A stretch of DNA of 64,000 nt, taken from assembly GCF_011751745.2 (NCBI RefSeq), contig NZ_CP061170.1:1860001-1924000 (forward strand). Direction: 5' to 3'. How positions within the stretch are numbered: position 1 is the stretch's first letter; each line of letters opens with the position of its first letter. The translations under genes and the position numbers were made by a program. This document shows, one piece after another, positions 1 through 7,514 of the stretch. Origin of the DNA: Paramicrobacterium fandaimingii. GTDB lineage: Bacteria; Actinomycetota; Actinomycetes; Actinomycetales; Microbacteriaceae. The notes beneath the pieces were generated by a model that did not search any database, was not told the origin of the DNA, and saw nothing but the letters and a program-made list of their open reading frames with translations.

Positions 1-1237
1 TGTCGCGCGCTTCTGCACCTCCGATACGGTAGCTGCCCTGGTATTCGAGAAACCGAACGAGAACGTTAGCGAGCGTGGTCTTTCCCGCTCCACTGCCGCC
101 GGTAATTATGACGGCCTCCCCCGGGCCGACATCGAGATTCACGTTCTTCACCGTGAGCGCGGATGAGCCTGGCCACGCCGCGGCGACGTTCTGCAGAGTC
201 AGACGCGTGCCACCGCACGGCGCAGATCGCGTCTCAGCATGGTTCTGCGCGGGAATCTCAGGCGGAAGACCATCGGGAACAAGAGACGCGAGCCTGTCGG
301 CACTTGACCGCACCGCTCGCCAATGGCTGAGTGCAACGGGCACCGTCCCCACAACTTCGAAGACGGCGAGCGGTACGAGCGCGACAACAGCGAATGTGGG
401 TCCGCCCACGCCCGCAGAGCTCACGAGCGGTGCACCGACGACGATGGCGCCCGCAACGGCCAGGCCCGCGCAGAGAGCAACCATCGCGGCACTGAGTCCG
501 AACCCGCGTGACCGGCGCAGAGCCGTGCGTGTCAGGTCGGAATCTGCCGCGGCGATGCGTTCTCGCGCAACGGGTTCGGCTCCGAAGTGCGACAGCACGG
601 CGAAGCCCTGCACATAATCGATGAGCGAACTGGTGAGAGCTGCTCGTTTTGGTGCGAGTGCGATCTCGGCCGCCCCTGCGAGCGAGGTGGTCATCCACGC
701 TCCTCCGGCACCGCACAGTACGAGCAGGCCAGCCAACACAATGGCCGCCGCGGGCGAGAGCAGCGCAGTTCCGGCGATCGTGATCACGCAGACCGTCACA
801 GCCACGACGATGGGCTGAACCACACGCAGCGAGAGGTTTTGCATTTCATCGATGTCGGAAACTATCGCATTCAAGAGCGACCCTCGAGAACGATTCGTGA
901 GCCCGGCCGGTGCGCGAGGGATCAGCCTGGTAAGCAGGTCAGTTCGCAAGGTTGCGAGCTGACGGAACACAGCATCGTGACTGTAGAGACGTTCGAGATA
1001 TCGAAAGACGGCTCGCGCGAGTGCAAACGCGCGAACGCCGACAGTGGCGATCGTGAGAAAGAGCACGGGCGGCTGCTCGGCCGCGCGCGCGATGAGCCAG
1101 GCGCTTGTCGCGAGCAGGGCCACGGCGCCGAGCCCCGTGGCAATTCCCGACAGCATCCCGGGCAGTGCCTGTCTGAAGCTCGGGAGTGCAGTGCGCAGGA
1201 TGCGGGTACGATCCCGTTCTGCGGTTCCGGCGCTCAT
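1..1237 (-). CDS. cydC: CydC, thiol-exporter ABC subunit (3' partial)
   Basis: The last gene of the cydABDC operon, read leftward; its C-terminal part lies outside the window and 412 codons are visible. It encodes a fused membrane-ATPase subunit that pairs with CydD; in E. coli the CydDC heterodimer exports cysteine and glutathione and is needed to assemble cytochrome bd. Hydrophobic segments fill the first 290 or so residues, followed by an ATPase domain with a Walker A motif (GGSGAGKTT). The ABC signature and Walker B lie beyond the edge. The ATG at 1237 overlaps the cydD stop as ATGA, indicating translational coupling. The exported thiol in an actinobacterium that probably makes mycothiol is unknown. 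Confidence 0.95.
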   Translation of the reverse strand, partial: MSAGTAERDRTRILRTALPSFRQALPGMLSGIATGLGAVALLATSAWLIARAAEQPPVLFLTIATVGVRAFALARAVFRYLERLYSHDAVFRQLATLRTDLLTRLIPRAPAGLTNRSRGSLLNAIVSDIDEMQNLSLRVVQPIVVAVTVCVITIAGTALLSPAAAIVLAGLLVLCGAGGAWMTTSLAGAAEIALAPKRAALTSSLIDYVQGFAVLSHFGAEPVARERIAAADSDLTRTALRRSRGFGLSAAMVALCAGLAVAGAIVVGAPLVSSAGVGGPTFAVVALVPLAVFEVVGTVPVALSHWRAVRSSADRLASLVPDGLPPEIPAQNHAETRSAPCGGTRLTLQNVAAAWPGSSALTVKNVNLDVGPGEAVIITGGSGAGKTTLANVLVRFLEYQGSYRIGGAEARD

Positions 1238-2868
1238 GCAACCACCTCCCGTGCGACATCGATCGACACATGCTCGTCTGCCCAGTCGAGCAGCGCGCGC
1301 TTGTGCGTAACGACGATCACGCACATGCCGCTCGCTGCGAGCCCGCGAATCCCGCGGGCAATGATCTGTTCTGTGCGCCGATCGAGTGCCGATGTCGGTT
1401 CGTCGAGAGCGATGATGCTCGCCGAGTTCGCCAACGCGCGGTAGTAGCAGCGGGCGAGACCGACACGTTGTGCCTGGCCTCCCGAGAGACCGGCTCCGGC
1501 AGCGCTAAGGGGAGCGTCAAGCTGAAGCTCACCGGCGCCCGCCAGGTGAAGCGCTCGCTCAGCGAGTCGCCGAGCGGGGGCAGAATCACCAAGCGTCACG
1601 TTGCTCAGTACCGTTCCCGATTGCAGCCCTGGGTGCTGAGGCGACCACGAAAGCCACGGTCGTCCGTGGGCGGGCGCGTTGCTGACGTCGACTCCTCCGA
1701 CGAATACCGTTCCCGTGAACGGAGTGAGTCCCGCAATCACCCCTATGAGCGTGGATTTTCCGGCACCGCTGGCGCCCGTCACCGCGGTGACGCTCCCGCG
1801 GCGAAAGCGTAGCCGCACATCATCAAGAACCGTGGTGTCGTCGCGCACCACAGTGACGCCGCTCAACTCGAGGTCACCCGAGGCTGCGACGGGCGCGCCA
1901 GCATCCGGTGTCGTCTGTGCCGAATCGAGAATCTCGAACGCATCCTGCGCGGCTTCAACGCCTTCGGCAGCGGCATGGAAATTTGCCCCAACCTGTCGGA
2001 TGGGGAAAAAGACCTCCGGTGCGAGAAGAAGCACGAAAAGACCAGTAAGCAGTGGCATGGTGCCATCGACGAGACGAAAGCCAATGGAGACCGCGAGCAG
2101 GGCAACTGACAAGCTCGCCATGAGCTCGAGCACAAAGCCAGAGAGGAACGACACCCGCAGCACCGACATCGTCGAATGACGATAATCAGCGGTGATCTGT
2201 CCCATGCGGGTGATCTGCCGCTTCTCGCGACCGAAGATCTTGAGGGTCGACAGACCTCCGACCACATCGATGAATGAACTGGACAGTCGGCTCAGGCCCT
2301 CCCACTGCCGGCGTTGAACTGTGCGGGTAGCAAGCCCGATCAGCACCATGAAGATCGGCACGATCGGAAGCGTCACGATAAGGGTCACGCCGGAGAGCCA
2401 GTCGTGCCAGAAGACAACAACCACGAGAAGTGGAACGGTAATGAGCGTTCGAATCAGCTGGGGAAGATAGCGGGCGAAATAATTGTCGAGCGCATCGAGA
2501 CCGTGACCGAGCAGCGTCGTGAGCGCTGCAGAGTTTCGGCGAGCAAGCCAATCGGCACCGAGACGCGGCAGAGCGTCGAGGATGCCCATGCGAAGTTCGC
2601 TCTTCGCACGGGCAGCCCCACGTGCGCCGATGACCTCAGTGCCCCAGGCAAGCAACGCACGCGTGAGGGCGAAGCCGGCAACGGCCCAGACCCCCTCAGC
2701 GATGCCAGCGAACGGCGCCCCGCCGATCACGCGCGTGATCGAGAGCGTTGCGAACCAGGCGAAGCCGATGATCGCGACGGTGTCAGCGAGAGCGACAATC
2801 GCACCGATCGTAAAGAACCCCCGTGACGAACGCGCGTAACGAAGCAGACGTGCGTCAAGCGGCCGCAT
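1234..2868 (-). CDS. cydD: CydD, thiol-exporter ABC subunit
   Basis: Membrane-ATPase half transporter of 544 residues and partner of CydC. A transmembrane domain of about 300 residues is followed by a nucleotide-binding domain with Walker A GASGAGKST, signature LSGGQAQR and Walker B IIALDEP. A longer reading frame starts at 2907, but the ATG at 2868 is preferred: it gives the usual short N-terminus (MRPLDARLLRYA), has an AGAGGCGG site upstream, and overlaps the cydB stop by only 14 bases. Third gene of cydABDC; required in model bacteria for haem insertion into cytochrome bd. Confidence 0.95.
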   Translation of the reverse strand: MRPLDARLLRYARSSRGFFTIGAIVALADTVAIIGFAWFATLSITRVIGGAPFAGIAEGVWAVAGFALTRALLAWGTEVIGARGAARAKSELRMGILDALPRLGADWLARRNSAALTTLLGHGLDALDNYFARYLPQLIRTLITVPLLVVVVFWHDWLSGVTLIVTLPIVPIFMVLIGLATRTVQRRQWEGLSRLSSSFIDVVGGLSTLKIFGREKRQITRMGQITADYRHSTMSVLRVSFLSGFVLELMASLSVALLAVSIGFRLVDGTMPLLTGLFVLLLAPEVFFPIRQVGANFHAAAEGVEAAQDAFEILDSAQTTPDAGAPVAASGDLELSGVTVVRDDTTVLDDVRLRFRRGSVTAVTGASGAGKSTLIGVIAGLTPFTGTVFVGGVDVSNAPAHGRPWLSWSPQHPGLQSGTVLSNVTLGDSAPARRLAERALHLAGAGELQLDAPLSAAGAGLSGGQAQRVGLARCYYRALANSASIIALDEPTSALDRRTEQIIARGIRGLAASGMCVIVVTHKRALLDWADEHVSIDVAREVVA

Positions 2869-3874
2869 GAGAATCCGCCTCTTCGGGAATGTGGGCGCGG
2901 GAAACACGCTTGCGAAAGACCCAGTACGTCCAGCCCTGGTAGAGCAGAATCAGGGGAACCGCGAGGAGAGCGATCCAGCTCATCACCTCGAGCGTGTACG
3001 CCGATGACGAGGCATTTTCGATGGTGAGACTGTTCGCCGAGTTGTTGATCGCGGGCATCACAGCCGGGAACAACGCGGTGAAAAGGGTGAGCACGGCGGC
3101 GGCGATCGTCGCTGCCATGCTCGTGAACGCGATTCCTTCTCGATTGAGCGCGTTGGCAATGAGGGCGCAGACAAGCAGGGCGGCCGCTGCGAGAGCCAGC
3201 ACGAACACCATCGGTGTGTTGTGATCAACCACGGTCCACGTGAGAAAGGCAACGGCGACCACGGCAGCAATCAGTCCGGCGCGCGCCGCAAGATGGCGCG
3301 CTCGGCCGCGAATCTCCCCCTCGGTCTTGAGGGCCACGAAGACAACGCCGTGCGTGAAGAACAGCATGAGCGTCGTCAGGCCTCCAAGCAGCGCATAAGG
3401 GGTGAGTAGGTCGAGGATGCTGCCAATGAAGTCGTGATTGGCATCAAGCGGAACACCGCGCACGATGTTGGCAAAGGCAACCCCCCATAGGAAGGCGGGA
3501 ACAGCGGATCCGACGATGATCATGGTGTCGAATCGGTGCTTCCACGATTTCTCAGGGCGCTGGTGCCGGTACTCGAATGAGACGCCCCGCAGAATCAAAG
3601 CGATGAGAATGAGCAGAAGCGGAAGGTAGAAGCCGCTGAACAGCGTGGCATACCACTCGGGGAATGCAGCGAAGAGCATTGCACCGGCAACGATGACCCA
3701 GGTCTCATTCAGATCCCAAACGGGCCCGATCGTGTTGATGAGCACTCGCCTGTCGGTGTCGTCCTTCCCTAAAAAGGGCAACGACATGCCGACGCCGAAG
3801 TCGAATCCATCGAGAACGAAATAGCCGATGAAGAATGCAGCGATGATCCAGAACCACACGAGCGTCAGATCCAT
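2855..3874 (-). CDS. cydB: Cytochrome bd ubiquinol/menaquinol oxidase subunit II
   Basis: Integral membrane subunit of 339 residues that pairs with CydA to form the cytochrome bd quinol oxidase, a high-affinity, proton-pump-free terminal oxidase. The N-terminus (WFWIIAAFFIGYFVLDGFDFG) and the segment with RRVLINTIGPVWDLNETW are hallmarks of CydB. About nine hydrophobic helices are apparent. It begins 8 bases after the cydA stop and overlaps cydD, so it is cotranscribed with both. Confidence 0.97.
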   Translation of the reverse strand: MDLTLVWFWIIAAFFIGYFVLDGFDFGVGMSLPFLGKDDTDRRVLINTIGPVWDLNETWVIVAGAMLFAAFPEWYATLFSGFYLPLLLILIALILRGVSFEYRHQRPEKSWKHRFDTMIIVGSAVPAFLWGVAFANIVRGVPLDANHDFIGSILDLLTPYALLGGLTTLMLFFTHGVVFVALKTEGEIRGRARHLAARAGLIAAVVAVAFLTWTVVDHNTPMVFVLALAAAALLVCALIANALNREGIAFTSMAATIAAAVLTLFTALFPAVMPAINNSANSLTIENASSSAYTLEVMSWIALLAVPLILLYQGWTYWVFRKRVSRAHIPEEADSHAAA

Positions 3875-3882
3875 GATCTCTC

Positions 3883-5295
3883 CTAATACACCGTCACCCG
3901 GGCGACGGGCTCGTCGTTGTCGTTCTCTGCAGTCTCGATCGGTTCGGGGCCGACGCGCACCGCCTTCAGAATCAGCCGGAACTCAACAACAGCCAACGTT
4001 CCGTACACGAGGGTGAATGCCACAAGCGACGTCAACACGGTGAGGCCGCTGACGCCGGGCGAGACTCCGTCTTCCGTTTTCAGCAGCCCGAAGACAAGCC
4101 ACGGCTGCCGCCCCATCTCGGTGAAGATCCAACCAACGCTCATTGCGAGCAGTGATGCGGGGAACGACCAGATCGCCGCCTTCCACACCCAGCGGTTCGT
4201 CGGCGTGCGCCCCTTCCGCGTCAGCCACAGTCCGACGACCGCGACGAGAATGTGCACCACGCCGAGACCAATCATCCACCGGAACGACCAGTACGTCACC
4301 CAGATGATCGGTGCGTAGTCTCCCGGACCATACATCGACTGGTAGGCAAGCTGAATGTCGTTGATCCCCTCGACAGTTCCGTCAAGAGAATGTGTGGAGA
4401 GGAGCGAAAGAAGATACGGCACACGAATGGAGAAGAGTTCGTGCACGCCGTCCGGAGTGCCGAGGGTAAATATCGAGAACGATGCATCGGCGCCGGATGC
4501 TGTCGTGTACAGCGCCTCAGCTGCCGCCATCTTCATGGGCTGAGCTTCGACCATCGCAAGGCTCAGCTGGTCGCCCATGAGTGCAGTGCCGGCTCCGGCG
4601 ATCAGCATCGTCCAGAGGCCGAATTTGAGCGCAGGACGCATCGTCTCGAGGTTCTGACCTCGTGCCAGGTGCCACGCCGCCACAGAGATGACGAGGCCCG
4701 CCGACACCATGAAACACGCGAAGATCGTGTGAGGGAATGCTGCAAGAGCAATCGGATTGGCAAGCAGCTCGCCGAGGCTCGTGAGTTCGGCTCGCCCCTT
4801 CTCTTCATTGATCGTGTAGGCAAGGGGATTCTGCATAAATGCATTCGCCGCAATGATGAAGTACGCGGACGCGATCGTTGCAACTGCGGTCACCCAGATT
4901 GTCGCCAGGTGAAGACCACGAGGAAGCCTGTCCCAGCCGAAGATCCAGAGGCCGATGAATGTGGCCTCGAGGAAAAACGCGAGCAGAGCTTCGAGAGCGA
5001 GCGGCGCACCGAACACGTCACCGACGAAACGGGAGTAGTCCGACCAGTTCATTCCGAACTGGAACTCCTGCACGATGCCCGTGACGACACCCATGGCGAA
5101 GTTGATCAGAAAGATCTTGCCGTAAAAGTGCGTCAGCTGCAGATAGTGCTGCTTTCCGGTTCGCACCCAGACCGTCTGAAAGAGGGCGACGATCGTCGCC
5201 AGGCCGATCGTCAGAGGAACGAACAGAAAGTGGTACAGCGTCGTCAGACCGAATTGCCACCGTGCGAGAACGAGAGGGTCGAGAAACTGCTCCAC
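3883..5295 (-). CDS. cydA: Cytochrome bd quinol oxidase subunit I
   Basis: Haem-carrying subunit, 470 residues from the GTG start chosen here. That GTG lies 7 bases after a GGGAGG site and yields MEQFLDPLVLARWQFG, aligning with known CydA N-termini; an upstream TTG at 5319 would place the site inside the gene. Visible functional residues: His22 in YHFLFVP (haem b595/d ligand region), the EALLAFFLEATF helix with two glutamates, PHTIFACF with the b558 histidine, the quinol-loop motif QPMKMAAAEA and GRQPW. The Q-loop is of the short type. First gene of cydABDC; upstream lie four palindromic operators shared with the divergent repressor gene. Confidence 0.97.
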   Translation of the reverse strand: MEQFLDPLVLARWQFGLTTLYHFLFVPLTIGLATIVALFQTVWVRTGKQHYLQLTHFYGKIFLINFAMGVVTGIVQEFQFGMNWSDYSRFVGDVFGAPLALEALLAFFLEATFIGLWIFGWDRLPRGLHLATIWVTAVATIASAYFIIAANAFMQNPLAYTINEEKGRAELTSLGELLANPIALAAFPHTIFACFMVSAGLVISVAAWHLARGQNLETMRPALKFGLWTMLIAGAGTALMGDQLSLAMVEAQPMKMAAAEALYTTASGADASFSIFTLGTPDGVHELFSIRVPYLLSLLSTHSLDGTVEGINDIQLAYQSMYGPGDYAPIIWVTYWSFRWMIGLGVVHILVAVVGLWLTRKGRTPTNRWVWKAAIWSFPASLLAMSVGWIFTEMGRQPWLVFGLLKTEDGVSPGVSGLTVLTSLVAFTLVYGTLAVVEFRLILKAVRVGPEPIETAENDNDEPVARVTVY

Positions 5296-5320
5296 CGGTG
5301 TACCTCCCAGAAGACTCAAG

Positions 5321-5408
5321 TTCTACGCGCCGTAGAACATTCACTTCTACACAGTGTAGAACACATTCTTCTACCCGACGTAGAGCAATGTTTCTACGCC
5401 ATGTAGAA
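5321..5408. promoter_or_regulatory. Four tandem 17-bp palindromic operators between cydA and the BlaI-type gene
   Basis: Four near-identical dyads follow TTCTAC-N5-GTAGAA: 5321-5337 (centre GCGCC), 5345-5361 (ACAGT), 5369-5385 (CCGAC; last base G instead of A) and 5392-5408 (GCCAT). Their centres are 24, 24 and 23 bp apart. The array lies in the divergent region between cydA and a BlaI/MecI-family repressor. BlaI/CopY proteins bind dyads built on TAC/GTA half-sites, so these are most likely its operators. The fourth dyad overlaps a candidate cydA -10 and abuts the repressor promoter, suggesting joint repression and autoregulation. Confidence 0.85.
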
Positions 5409-5419
5409 CCTTCCGTCAA
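5391..5419 (-). promoter_or_regulatory. Candidate cydA promoter
   Basis: On the minus strand, TTGACG (5419-5414) is separated by 17 bases from TAGAAA (5396-5391). The -10 hexamer lies within the fourth operator. This would give a 5' leader of roughly 90 bases carrying the other three operators. The -10 is weak, and each operator contains a similar TAGAA, so the real start could lie nearer the gene. Confidence 0.35.
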
Positions 5420-5426
5420 AACCACG

Positions 5427-5432
5427 TATCCT
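5427..5432 (+). promoter_or_regulatory. -10 element of the BlaI-type gene (leaderless)
   Basis: TATCCT ends six bases before the ATG at 5439, so transcription should start at or next to the start codon. There is no ribosome binding site. The matching -35 region falls on the fourth operator, consistent with autorepression. Confidence 0.6.
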
Positions 5433-5438
5433 AGAGTC

Positions 5439-5822
5439 ATGGCAACTCTTGGTGATCTTGAACGCTCGGTGATGGATGTGCTCTGGGCATCCGCTGAGCC
5501 GCTCAGCGCTGGTGATCTGAGGGACCGTCTCGTGACGTCCGGCACCGGTGAGGCGCAGCGACAGCTGGCAGCGACGACAGTCTTGACTGTACTCTCGCGC
5601 CTCGAGTCAAAGGGCTTCGTCTCCCGCAATCGTGCGCATCGCCCTCACCTCTATGAGTCCGTCACGACACGGGCAGACCACACAGCTGAGCTGATGCACG
5701 AGGTGCTTGGCTCATCACCCGACCGAGAGGCGGCGCTCGCTCGCTTCATCGGGCACGTCTCGCCGTCTGAGGCTGAGACGCTGCGCTCGCTGCTCGACCC
5801 CACGTCAATCCCGGCAAAATAA
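5439..5822 (+). CDS. BlaI/MecI/CopY-family transcriptional repressor
   Basis: Winged-helix repressor of 127 residues, starting MATLGDLERSVMDVLW, the typical BlaI/MecI opening. Helix-turn-helix in the first 75 residues (ATTVLTVLSRLESKGFV is the recognition helix and turn); the C-terminal part is the dimerisation domain that M56 proteases cleave in the beta-lactamase system. A longer frame runs in from upstream, but the ATG at 5439 matches the family and has a -10 six bases before it. It is divergent from cydABDC across four palindromes and followed 17 bases later by an M56 protease gene. Probable role: repressor of itself, the protease and cydABDC. Confidence 0.9.
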   Translation: MATLGDLERSVMDVLWASAEPLSAGDLRDRLVTSGTGEAQRQLAATTVLTVLSRLESKGFVSRNRAHRPHLYESVTTRADHTAELMHEVLGSSPDREAALARFIGHVSPSEAETLRSLLDPTSIPAK

Positions 5823-5839
5823 CCGTATTCGACAGTGCG

Positions 5840-6760
5840 ATGGTTGTAGCCTCTGCACTTCTCGCTGCGCTCGCATTCGCGCTTGCCTGGCCTGTGCCGA
5901 TCGTGCTCGCACGAGCGGACTGGCCGTCGCGGGCGCCCGCCATCGCCCTGGTGGTATGGCAGGCGATCGCCATAGCCGGTGTGCTCTCGACGATCGGCGC
6001 CTTCGGCACATTCGGTCTCTCCGGGATCGCCTCCACCGTTTCCGACGGACTCGTGATTCTTGCCTCTGCGGCGATGGACGGCTCAACCCCGAGTGGTCTG
6101 GGTACCGCGCACATTTTCGCACTCTGTTGCGCCGTGCTCTTTGCGGGGCACCTTCTGCTCAGCGTGCTGACGACAATTGTGCGCACAGAACGCGAGCGAC
6201 GGCGGCAACACGATCTCGTCACGCTTCTGAGCACCCCGACAAGCTCCATTCCCGGAACACGACTGCTGGAATACGCCGCCCCGGTCGCCTATTGCCTGCC
6301 CGGCGCATTTCGCACGGCCACGGTGCTGACCGATGGTCTTGTCAAGGCGCTCAGCACCGACGAAGTGAACGCCGTCATCTCCCACGAGCGCGCTCACCTG
6401 GCGCAGCAGCACCATCTGCTGCTTCTGGCGTTCAGGGCGTGGCGCAAGGCTCTCCCCTGGTTTCCGATCGCGACGAGGGCAAGCGACGCCGTCGGGCTCC
6501 TCGTCGAAATGCGCGCAGACGACACTGCGAGAGCCGAATACTCCGCGGATTCTCTTGTGTCCGCGATCATCACCGTCGCCACGGGCGGAGGTGGGTCTCC
6601 CGATGTCGGCGTAGCCGATGCAACGCCGCAGTCGGCTGCTCCCCGCGTGACACGACTGTTGACACAGCCTCACCCTCTACCCTCGTTTGCCGTTGTCGGC
6701 ATCCTTGGTGCATCGCTTGCCCTCGTGCTCGTTCCTCCCCTTCTCCTGCTCACAGCGTGA
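5840..6760 (+). CDS. Membrane metalloprotease, M56 (BlaR1-like) family
   Basis: Membrane protein of 306 residues with hydrophobic segments near residues 1-24, 32-56, 92-115 and 275-303. The zinc-protease motif HERAH is at 183-187 (within about one residue) with a downstream VEMRADD (glutamate near 223) as likely third ligand. M56 proteins such as BlaR1 and MecR1 cleave their cognate BlaI-type repressor. This one ends shortly after its last membrane segment and has no penicillin-binding sensor domain, so it is unlikely to sense beta-lactams in the manner of staphylococcal BlaR1. It follows the repressor gene by 17 bases and probably forms an operon with it. Confidence 0.85.
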   Translation: MVVASALLAALAFALAWPVPIVLARADWPSRAPAIALVVWQAIAIAGVLSTIGAFGTFGLSGIASTVSDGLVILASAAMDGSTPSGLGTAHIFALCCAVLFAGHLLLSVLTTIVRTERERRRQHDLVTLLSTPTSSIPGTRLLEYAAPVAYCLPGAFRTATVLTDGLVKALSTDEVNAVISHERAHLAQQHHLLLLAFRAWRKALPWFPIATRASDAVGLLVEMRADDTARAEYSADSLVSAIITVATGGGGSPDVGVADATPQSAAPRVTRLLTQPHPLPSFAVVGILGASLALVLVPPLLLLTA

Positions 6761-6788: not shown

Positions 6789-7514
6789 GTGAACGAGATT
6801 CTCGACAGCATTCTGGATGCTGTTCAGAGCGTTGACCCGGTACTGCGCACGCTCATCGCCGGGGTGGGCATCCTGCTCGAAACGAGCATCCTCATCGGGC
6901 TGATCGTTCCGGGCGATACCATCGTCATCGTCGCCGGCACCGGCATCGAAACCCCATTCCAGTTCATGGCGATGTACGTCGCCGTCGTCGTCGGTGCGCT
7001 CACGGGAGAAAGCATCGGGTTCGCCCTTGGCCGATACTTCGGCGACCACATCCGCCGCTCACGACTCGGAAAGCGAATCGGCGAGCACAACTGGCAGAAG
7101 GCCGAACGCTATCTCGAACGACGGGGCGGCATCGCTGTTTTTCTCTCCCGCTTTCTTCCCGTTCTGCATTCGCTCATTCCCTTGACCGTTGGCATGAGCA
7201 CGATGAGGTATCGCCGCTTTCTCGCGTGGACGATCCCAGCCTGCCTCATCTGGACCGGTGCCTACGTCTCCGTTGGATCAGCCGCAGCGGAGACATATCG
7301 AGAGCTCTCGCAACGCCTTCATTTCGCCGGCTACGTCTTCGTCGCCATCATCGCCCTGTTCTTGATCGTCGTCTGGGCCGTCAAGAAGATTCTTCACCGC
7401 ATCGAACGGCGCCACATGACGCGCTCCCAGGCTCAGGAGCCACCGTCAGATCGCAGCGACGACGACAACGTGACAGGATTGACTGATGCCCCGCACAGAG
7501 ATGAGTCAGCCTGA
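6789..7514 (+). CDS. DedA-family membrane protein
   Basis: Protein of 241 residues with a GTG start, belonging to the DedA/VTT family of membrane transporters linked to undecaprenyl-phosphate or phospholipid translocation. Signs: LIVPGDTIVIVAG near residue 40, the GxxxGxxxGRYFG loop (GESIGFALGRYFG), and the amphipathic FLSRFLPVLHSLIPLTVG with the conserved arginine and proline. Membrane segments at both ends and a charged C-terminal tail. The end overlaps the next gene by 29 bases, so the two may be cotranscribed. Confidence 0.85.
   Translation: MNEILDSILDAVQSVDPVLRTLIAGVGILLETSILIGLIVPGDTIVIVAGTGIETPFQFMAMYVAVVVGALTGESIGFALGRYFGDHIRRSRLGKRIGEHNWQKAERYLERRGGIAVFLSRFLPVLHSLIPLTVGMSTMRYRRFLAWTIPACLIWTGAYVSVGSAAAETYRELSQRLHFAGYVFVAIIALFLIVVWAVKKILHRIERRHMTRSQAQEPPSDRSDDDNVTGLTDAPHRDESA

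Follow-up and report, generated by a model that had tools for sequence, protein, structure and literature searches.

Here we report a locus of Paramicrobacterium fandaimingii in which the genes of a cytochrome bd oxidase and a BlaI-type repressor diverge from a shared array of inverted repeats. We consider it likely that this cydABDC-blaI arrangement is the core of a BlaI/M56-like respiratory regulon, in which the repeats are predicted BlaI operators and repression would be relieved by a protease encoded beside the repressor. The array, the linkage of the genes, the association of the motif with the repressor and the identities of the other target genes are computed here, and the protease is predicted by modelling to adopt a BlaR1-like fold.

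Gene organization of the locus

Within the window, that is, the whole stretch of 64,000 nucleotides that was analysed, the bd oxidase genes lie on the minus strand and comprise cydA (3883..5295; subunit I; PF01654, E 2.2e-158), cydB (2855..3874; subunit II; PF02322, TIGR00203), cydD (1234..2907; TIGR02857) and cydC (2..1324; TIGR02868), the last being truncated by the window edge. The blaI-type repressor gene is encoded on the plus strand (5439..5822; PF03965, E 4e-20), and these Pfam and NCBIfam calls bear out the position given to the array in the preliminary description, between cydABDC and a BlaI/MecI-type gene. The repressor has 127 residues and no cysteine, its Penicillinase_R domain (PF03965) covers residues 4-120 with 72.7 bits against a cut-off of 22.6, and its nearest solved structure is 2g9w (E 4.8e-15), which we take to be M. 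tuberculosis BlaI.

The next gene on the plus strand (5840..6760) encodes a BlaR1-like membrane zinc protease of 306 residues, with HExxH at residues 182-186 followed by E223 and D227; as in the BlaR1/MecR1 (M56) group, the HExxH...E metalloprotease signature falls within a transmembrane domain. VIA-align ranked BlaR1 first for the predicted fold, the model matching BlaR1 residues 1-289, and Foldseek alone returned no match at E<=0.001 (best Ste24p, 3.4e-3; BlaR1, 8.7e-3). The original designation of this product as an M56 protease is sustained by the HExxH motif and the BlaR1-like predicted fold but not by Pfam, which places it in Peptidase_M48 rather than M56. A C-terminal penicillin-binding sensor domain is absent from the protein as judged by its length of 306 residues, by Pfam and by the structural match, which stops at BlaR1 residue 289.

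Two further features of this part of the locus were observed. Cys152 of the protease, located on an AYCLP strand approximately 30 residues ahead of HExxH, is kept in 25 of 26 aligned relatives (alignment A2, which omits L018, identical to the protein of the window, as well as L037, L039, L040 and L044) and is a candidate redox-sensitive residue. A gene for a VTT/DedA membrane protein (6789-7514) comes after the protease gene, a position that is kept within the genus and by three further relatives.

The predicted operator array between cydA and blaI

Reading of the sequence and a motif scan both identify four dyads of the form TTCTAC-N5-GTAGAA within 5321..5408, three of them exact and one with a single mismatch, none being assigned to a strand. 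Dyad 1 (5321..5337; TTCTACGCGCCGTAGAA), the predicted cydA-proximal operator, and dyad 2 (5345..5361; TTCTACACAGTGTAGAA) are exact, dyad 3 (5369..5385; TTCTACCCGACGTAGAG) departs from the motif only in its last base, G, and dyad 4 (5392..5408; TTCTACGCCATGTAGAA) is again exact. Their centres are 24, 24 and 23 bp apart, as first described, corresponding to 2.29, 2.29 and 2.19 turns at 10.5 bp per turn; since 23-24 bp is no whole number of turns, same-face stacking of neighbouring dyads is not implied. The array takes up 88 of the 143 bp that separate the cydA start (5295) from the blaI start (5439). Dyad 1 lies 26 bp ahead of the cydA start, and a dyad occurs within 3 bp of its position relative to blaI in four other genomes of the genus.

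On the opposite side of the array, a probable -10 element of blaI, TATCCT (5427..5432, plus strand), is found 6 nt ahead of the ATG in all five genus genomes examined. This conserved placement suggests a leaderless blaI mRNA, with dyad 4 overlapping the stretch where a -35 element would be expected. Neither a terminator nor, in a sigma-70 consensus scan, a standard sigma-70 promoter was found in 5100-5900.

Allowing up to three mismatches, the window holds 17 matches to the motif against a shuffle mean of 8.1 (shuffle maximum 15); the 13 of these outside the array all carry three mismatches, and only the four sites of the array carry fewer. Across the genome (3.62 Mb, one contig) there are seven exact sites, three in the array and four elsewhere, versus none for a control pattern read backward. 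At up to two mismatches the motif has 74 sites genome-wide versus 155 for the backward control; because the control is then the commoner of the two, weak matches are by themselves meaningless, and only strong sites were used in the analysis of wider targets. Chance inverted repeats were ruled out as an explanation by the window scan, the genome counts and the conserved gaps in relatives.

Conservation across related genomes

Taking a BlaI match of E 7.7e-30 or better as close, 28 of 99 genomes are carriers, that of the window included, and all 28 have a divergent cydA and a downstream protease gene. Once all loci had been put in one orientation, the 28 cydA-blaI gaps yielded 73 dyads at 0-1 mismatch, where shuffled sequence averaged 0.007: no dyad in one gap, one in one, two in 12, three in eight and four in six. 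The gaps with four dyads are those of L035 and of all five members of the window's genus, and two or three per gap is the usual number elsewhere. Neighbouring dyads are separated by 21-26 bp in 37 of 46 cases, most commonly by 24 bp (14/46), and this near-constant spacing, a property read from sequence, suggests a geometric constraint. Absence of the array ahead of cydA in relatives with both genes had been named in the preliminary description as an outcome that would speak against its reading; 27 of the 28 carriers have a gap dyad with 0-1 mismatch, the sole exception being G065 (locus L045).

We also examined named loci, taking the best 80 of 560, which are the closest ones and derive from Arthrobacter, Pseudarthrobacter, Cryobacterium, Mycetocola, Subtercola and others, with species that may overlap with the 99 genomes. 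In these best 80 of 560, cydA is divergent in 78, the protease gene and at least one dyad (up to two mismatches) are each present in 80, and the modal dyad distance is again 24 bp (45/139). The nearest named relative among the matches listed is Microbacterium sp. MPKO10, whose BlaI is 86% identical. An Arthrobacter-like cydA-blaI-protease locus also turned up under the name Vibrio cholerae strain 35D (L250, WNZI01000013.1), probably through a mislabelled or contaminated assembly. A separate observation concerns CydA itself, of which two lineages adjoin the blaI module, one at least 73% identical to that of the window and the other about 42-60% identical over two pieces. To judge from these sequences, the presence of two CydA lineages beside the module suggests displacement or transfer of one part.

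The exact motif is carried by 26 of the 28 close-BlaI genomes and by 3 of the 71 others (Fisher 2.5e-18, with relatedness ignored). Of the two carriers that lack it, G052 has two sites with one mismatch and G065 none; among the three non-carriers with the motif, the site of G091 adjoins that genome's own more distant BlaI-protease pair. cydA occurs in 84 of the 99 genomes, including all 28 carriers, and 56 genomes have cydA without a close BlaI. Repressors of the BlaI/MecI family bind inverted repeats with TAC/GTA cores, and at the level of sequence the dyads with a TAC-N5-GTA core adjoin blaI and co-occur with blaI across genomes. The scan of this genome and its relatives that had been proposed at the outset has in this way yielded a small set of exact sites and a motif that tracks close BlaI.

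Predicted target operons outside cyd

Exact sites outside cyd are found in 15 of the 28 carriers, the other 13 having none. All of these non-cyd sites were fetched (51 sites at 49 loci; L142-L144, from three genomes without a close BlaI, were excluded), and with a home-made gene caller 47 of the 51 sites fell clear of any called gene, and at 47 of the 49 loci a gene began no more than 300 bp away. Target genes were assigned with Pfam/NCBIfam, from blast matches to annotated genes and, for a few, from likeness to a tested relative.

Respiratory-type targets, a category drawn after the genes had been seen, account for 30 of the 49 loci and for 15 of the 31 outside the window's genus. They include pta at six loci (at one as the second gene), atpB at five, resA-ccdA (cytochrome c maturation) at four, and a nirK-like operon at four, whose second gene is the nitrite reductase-like one, scoring under its NCBIfam cut-off. 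hemQ-like genes of the chlorite dismutase family are found at three loci (with ferrochelatase next, as tested in one), flavohaemoglobin-type genes at three, cytochrome c oxidase subunit II at two, and ctaG, narK-like/molybdopterin genes and qcrC at one each; a one-mismatch site is also found ahead of the COX3 gene that precedes qcrC. The other 19 loci are without evident respiratory link, and among them are an ArsR-type regulator (three loci), a pyridoxamine-oxidase-like gene (two), MarR, PdxS-like, adenosine deaminase, pyrophosphatase, CopC and Usp genes and unknowns, as well as L116, where the site is within a called gene, and L117, which has no start within 300 bp. The ArsR-type regulator (L146:3198-3836) has several C-terminal Cys, an exact dyad upstream in three genus genomes and a cytochrome b561-like gene nearby, and may represent a second-tier regulator.

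In the genome of the window an exact site lies ahead of atpB, and predicted operators precede both bd oxidase and ATP synthase genes, as in the mycobacterial-type respiratory BlaI regulon. The preliminary description had presented the locus as a switch for the high-affinity terminal oxidase; the array common to cydA and blaI and the BlaR1-like protease next to it agree with this, but the description proves too narrow, as other respiratory operons carry the motif.

Comparative promoter tests

A matrix built from the cyd arrays only was run upstream of atpB, ctaC, hemE and the PGM-resA operon, four operons that were chosen since a carrier had shown a match, with a cut-off of 10 that was set after looking at the data. 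Scores above 10 were obtained in 4 of 15 carriers versus 0 of 15 non-carriers both for atpB (Mann-Whitney p 0.085) and for ctaC (Mann-Whitney p 0.065), each being weak alone. hemE gave 5 of 15 carriers versus 0 of 11 non-carriers; at a cut-off of 5 the counts are 5/15 and 1/11 (p 0.17), the one non-carrier (6.4) dropping out at 10. Only the PGM-resA operon is significant alone, with 8 of 15 carriers versus 0 of 11 non-carriers (p 0.004).

Pooling the four operons at scores above 10 gave 21/60 with BlaI versus 0/52 without (p 2.8e-7), in tests that are non-independent, the genomes and operons being related. The count with BlaI becomes 15/54 (p 1.3e-5) on removal of the pairs that had prompted the choice of operons, 11/46 (p 1.2e-4) outside the window's own genus, and 8/43 (p 1.2e-3) under both restrictions. 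The window's genome thereby gains a hemA/hemE site (TTCTATGCCGTGTAGAA) and a site ahead of the operon reaching resA and ccdA (CTCTACAGAACGTAGAC). Of the other four genomes of the genus, two have a site like the former and two lack one, and the latter is identical in all five. A universal regulon was rejected: the cyd site alone is near-universal, and the atpB and ctaC sites are patchy.

Operator sequence and BlaI residues 45 and 49

Among loci that combine a Tyr45/Met49 BlaI with a TAC-core operator, seven (L294-L298, L046 and L047) have TACTAC and/or TACGAC arms, and an eighth, L299, has TACTAC in one arm of a less symmetric site. None of the 27 aligned close carriers has Tyr45, the residue there being A, V, L, P or I. 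At position 49, Leu is found in 25 of them and His in two, and 26 of the 27 have a TTCTAC gap dyad, the exception being L045. TTCTAC-type sites are also present in the distant lineages L293 (Met45) and L144 (Gln45). No operator was found at Tyr45 loci such as L300, L309, L311, L315, L319 and L320, and L313, L316 and L317 show only weak GAC/GTC sites. Among the distant loci of the phylum, L293-L320, a crude scan found TCTAC-type dyads in L293 only, and the helix motif was not recognised in 12 of the 28. A pairing of Tyr45/Met49 with TACTAC/TACGAC half-sites, and of other residues at position 45 with TTCTAC, is thus predicted from few independent events.

Sequence comparison also hints that the respiratory link of BlaI predates this operator. 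By blast, the distant phylum members L300, L311, L317 and L299 have BlaI-type genes no more than 1.5 kb away from genes resembling resA/ccdA or cydA.

Proposed mechanism

In the mechanism that we propose, BlaI dimers on the dyads would block both the divergent cydABDC promoter and the promoter of blaI itself. As dyad 4 probably lies on the blaI -35 region and dyad 1 is positioned close ahead of cydA, bound BlaI would repress both, and its binding at its own promoter would result in autoregulation. With the same dyad at other operons, BlaI would govern a respiratory regulon that has cydABDC-blaI-protease as its only near-universal member. The adjoining protease, probably co-transcribed with blaI and devoid of a beta-lactam sensor domain, would cleave BlaI upon a membrane or respiratory signal, and this cleavage would derepress the whole target set. 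BlaI binding, any cooperativity along the array as put forward in the preliminary description, repression, co-transcription, cleavage and the signal are the steps that we infer.

Phe103 of BlaI is present in all 28 aligned sequences (alignment A1, comprising 27 close carriers and the more distant L046, with L037 and L047 left out) and lines up with Phe102 of S. aureus BlaI, which is given in the accessible text of PMC9834060 as the P1' residue of cleavage at N101-F102. This alignment fits cleavage by the neighbouring protease, although conservation of the Phe may alternatively serve the dimer core. At P1, where S. aureus BlaI has Asn, 26 of the 28 carry Arg.

A more far-reaching reading, which we offer tentatively and would not yet call probable, casts the BlaI-protease pair of Micrococcales as the master switch for their aerobic energy metabolism. 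In this view the sensorless protease would read the respiratory, redox or membrane-energy state via its membrane domain (perhaps through Cys152) and destroy BlaI, raising bd oxidase, bcc-aa3, ATP synthase, haem synthesis and cytochrome c assembly together, and a change at BlaI residues 45/49 would have shifted operator preference from one to the other of TACTAC and TTCTAC.

Alternative explanations

The family origin of the pair and the predicted BlaR1-like fold of the protease, its nearest, would also suit a response to cell-wall or beta-lactam stress like that of classical BlaI-BlaR1, with the respiration genes as downstream output only. In the available parts of PMC5473688, M. tuberculosis BlaI represses blaC, and amoxicillin-clavulanate raises the expression of blaI-blaR and cydAB. 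We nevertheless regard this as unlikely for the present locus, where the protease lacks the sensor domain (306 residues, matching BlaR1 residues 1-289) and no beta-lactamase was found among those neighbours of exact dyads that received an annotation.

It is less probable still that BlaI acts locally only, regulating cydABDC and its own gene, with the other sites incidental or belonging to other regulators, as the 13 of 28 carriers without an exact site outside cyd might suggest. The positioning of non-cyd sites near gene starts (within 300 bp at 47 of 49 loci), the recurrence of the same operons across different families, and a resA-operon site that is identical in five genus genomes and absent in 11 of 11 non-carriers all argue instead for a wider BlaI regulon.

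Release by copper status rather than proteolysis, as expected of a metal-sensing CopY-type repressor, would accommodate the copper-protein targets (nitrite reductase-like, cytochrome c oxidase subunit II), the copper-handling CopC and the location of a second BlaI gene near a CopD-like gene, and the repressor shows a weak CopY_TcrY match. This we consider very improbable: CopY requires a Cys hook, the BlaI protein has no cysteine, and the cytochrome bd, ATP synthase and haem-synthesis targets contain no copper. CopY identity itself was rejected on the score (25 bits against a cut-off of 121.95) and the lack of Cys. The second BlaI gene (L377:3849-5046, at approximately 3.16 Mb) is followed by an unclassified membrane protein gene and lies beside the CopD-like gene, which scores under its NCBIfam cut-off; it possibly belongs to a separate copper-related circuit. 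That another regulator, such as this second BlaI, owns the array is likewise very improbable, as no dyad with up to two mismatches occurs in 8.5 kb around its gene and the motif follows the cyd-linked BlaI across the 99 genomes.

Significance and comparison with known systems

The proteolysis-relieved respiratory regulon proposed here bears on how this repressor family is viewed. BlaI/BlaR1 are known as regulators of antibiotic resistance; if our reading is true, their relatives here coordinate the respiratory chain, and resistance circuits would be one special application of a design that is older or arose in parallel. The signal of a sensorless BlaR-type protease becomes testable in harmless soil bacteria, where operator, targets and repressor sit together, and the coupling between residues 45/49 and the operator offers a direct test of BlaI DNA choice.

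Respiratory targets of BlaI are already known from mycobacteria. In the accessible parts of the respective papers, mycobacterial BlaI binds the bd-oxidase and ATP synthase promoters, mycobacterial BlaR is without an extracellular sensor, and the signal of sensorless BlaR-type proteases is open in mycobacteria (PMC5473688); BlaI is named as a regulator of the atp operon (PMC5874750); its overexpression in M. smegmatis lowers transcription of the atp-operon gene, with binding by EMSA, and it represses Rv1303 of that operon (PMC12565901); and atp genes are predicted members of its regulon (PMC7924339). All four cite Sala 2009. The inclusion of ATP synthase in the mycobacterial BlaI regulon, put forward in the preliminary description, is thereby confirmed at second hand (PMC5473688, PMC5874750). 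The accessible portions of the open-licence literature, preprints excluded, yielded no study of the TTCTAC motif or of a BlaI regulon in Micrococcales, and the available text of one Micrococcales paper, matched via 'blaIII', names no BlaI respiratory regulation (PMC10581053). Within that literature, as far as it was accessible, the cydA-linked array with conserved spacing, the extended Micrococcales target set and the coupling of operator to residue are new.

The closest parallel is BlaI-BlaR (Rv1846c-Rv1845c) of M. tuberculosis, which shares the bd-oxidase and ATP synthase promoters and whose repressor is represented by the closest solved homologue, 2g9w. In contrast to that system, blaI here diverges from cydA across a gap that commonly holds two to four predicted operators. 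The target set also takes in resA-ccdA, hemA/hemE, hemQ-like, ctaC, qcrC, nirK-like, flavohaemoglobin and pta genes, some of which mycobacteria may share. The sites of family f22, which we guess to be mycobacteria-like, have arms TACGAC and TACTAC, versus TTCTAC here. Unlike BlaI-BlaR1 and MecI-MecR1 of S. aureus, the present pair lacks a penicillin-binding sensor domain and has predicted respiratory targets, and its recognition-helix region reads TTVLTVL versus the staphylococcal KTIRTLIT.

Similar gene sets are also governed by regulators of other kinds. HrrSA is a two-component system whose proteins are unrelated to the BlaI-protease pair, and the fold and operator of Rex are unrelated to those of BlaI. 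Rex of Streptomyces resembles the present system in controlling aerobic metabolism genes, cydA and hemA being frequent terms in the accessible text of PMC5355995, and differs from BlaI in being an NADH-responsive repressor (PMC5355995). Like HrrSA of Corynebacterium glutamicum, as described in the available part of PMC7337898, the regulon proposed here would place haem and terminal oxidase genes under a single regulator.
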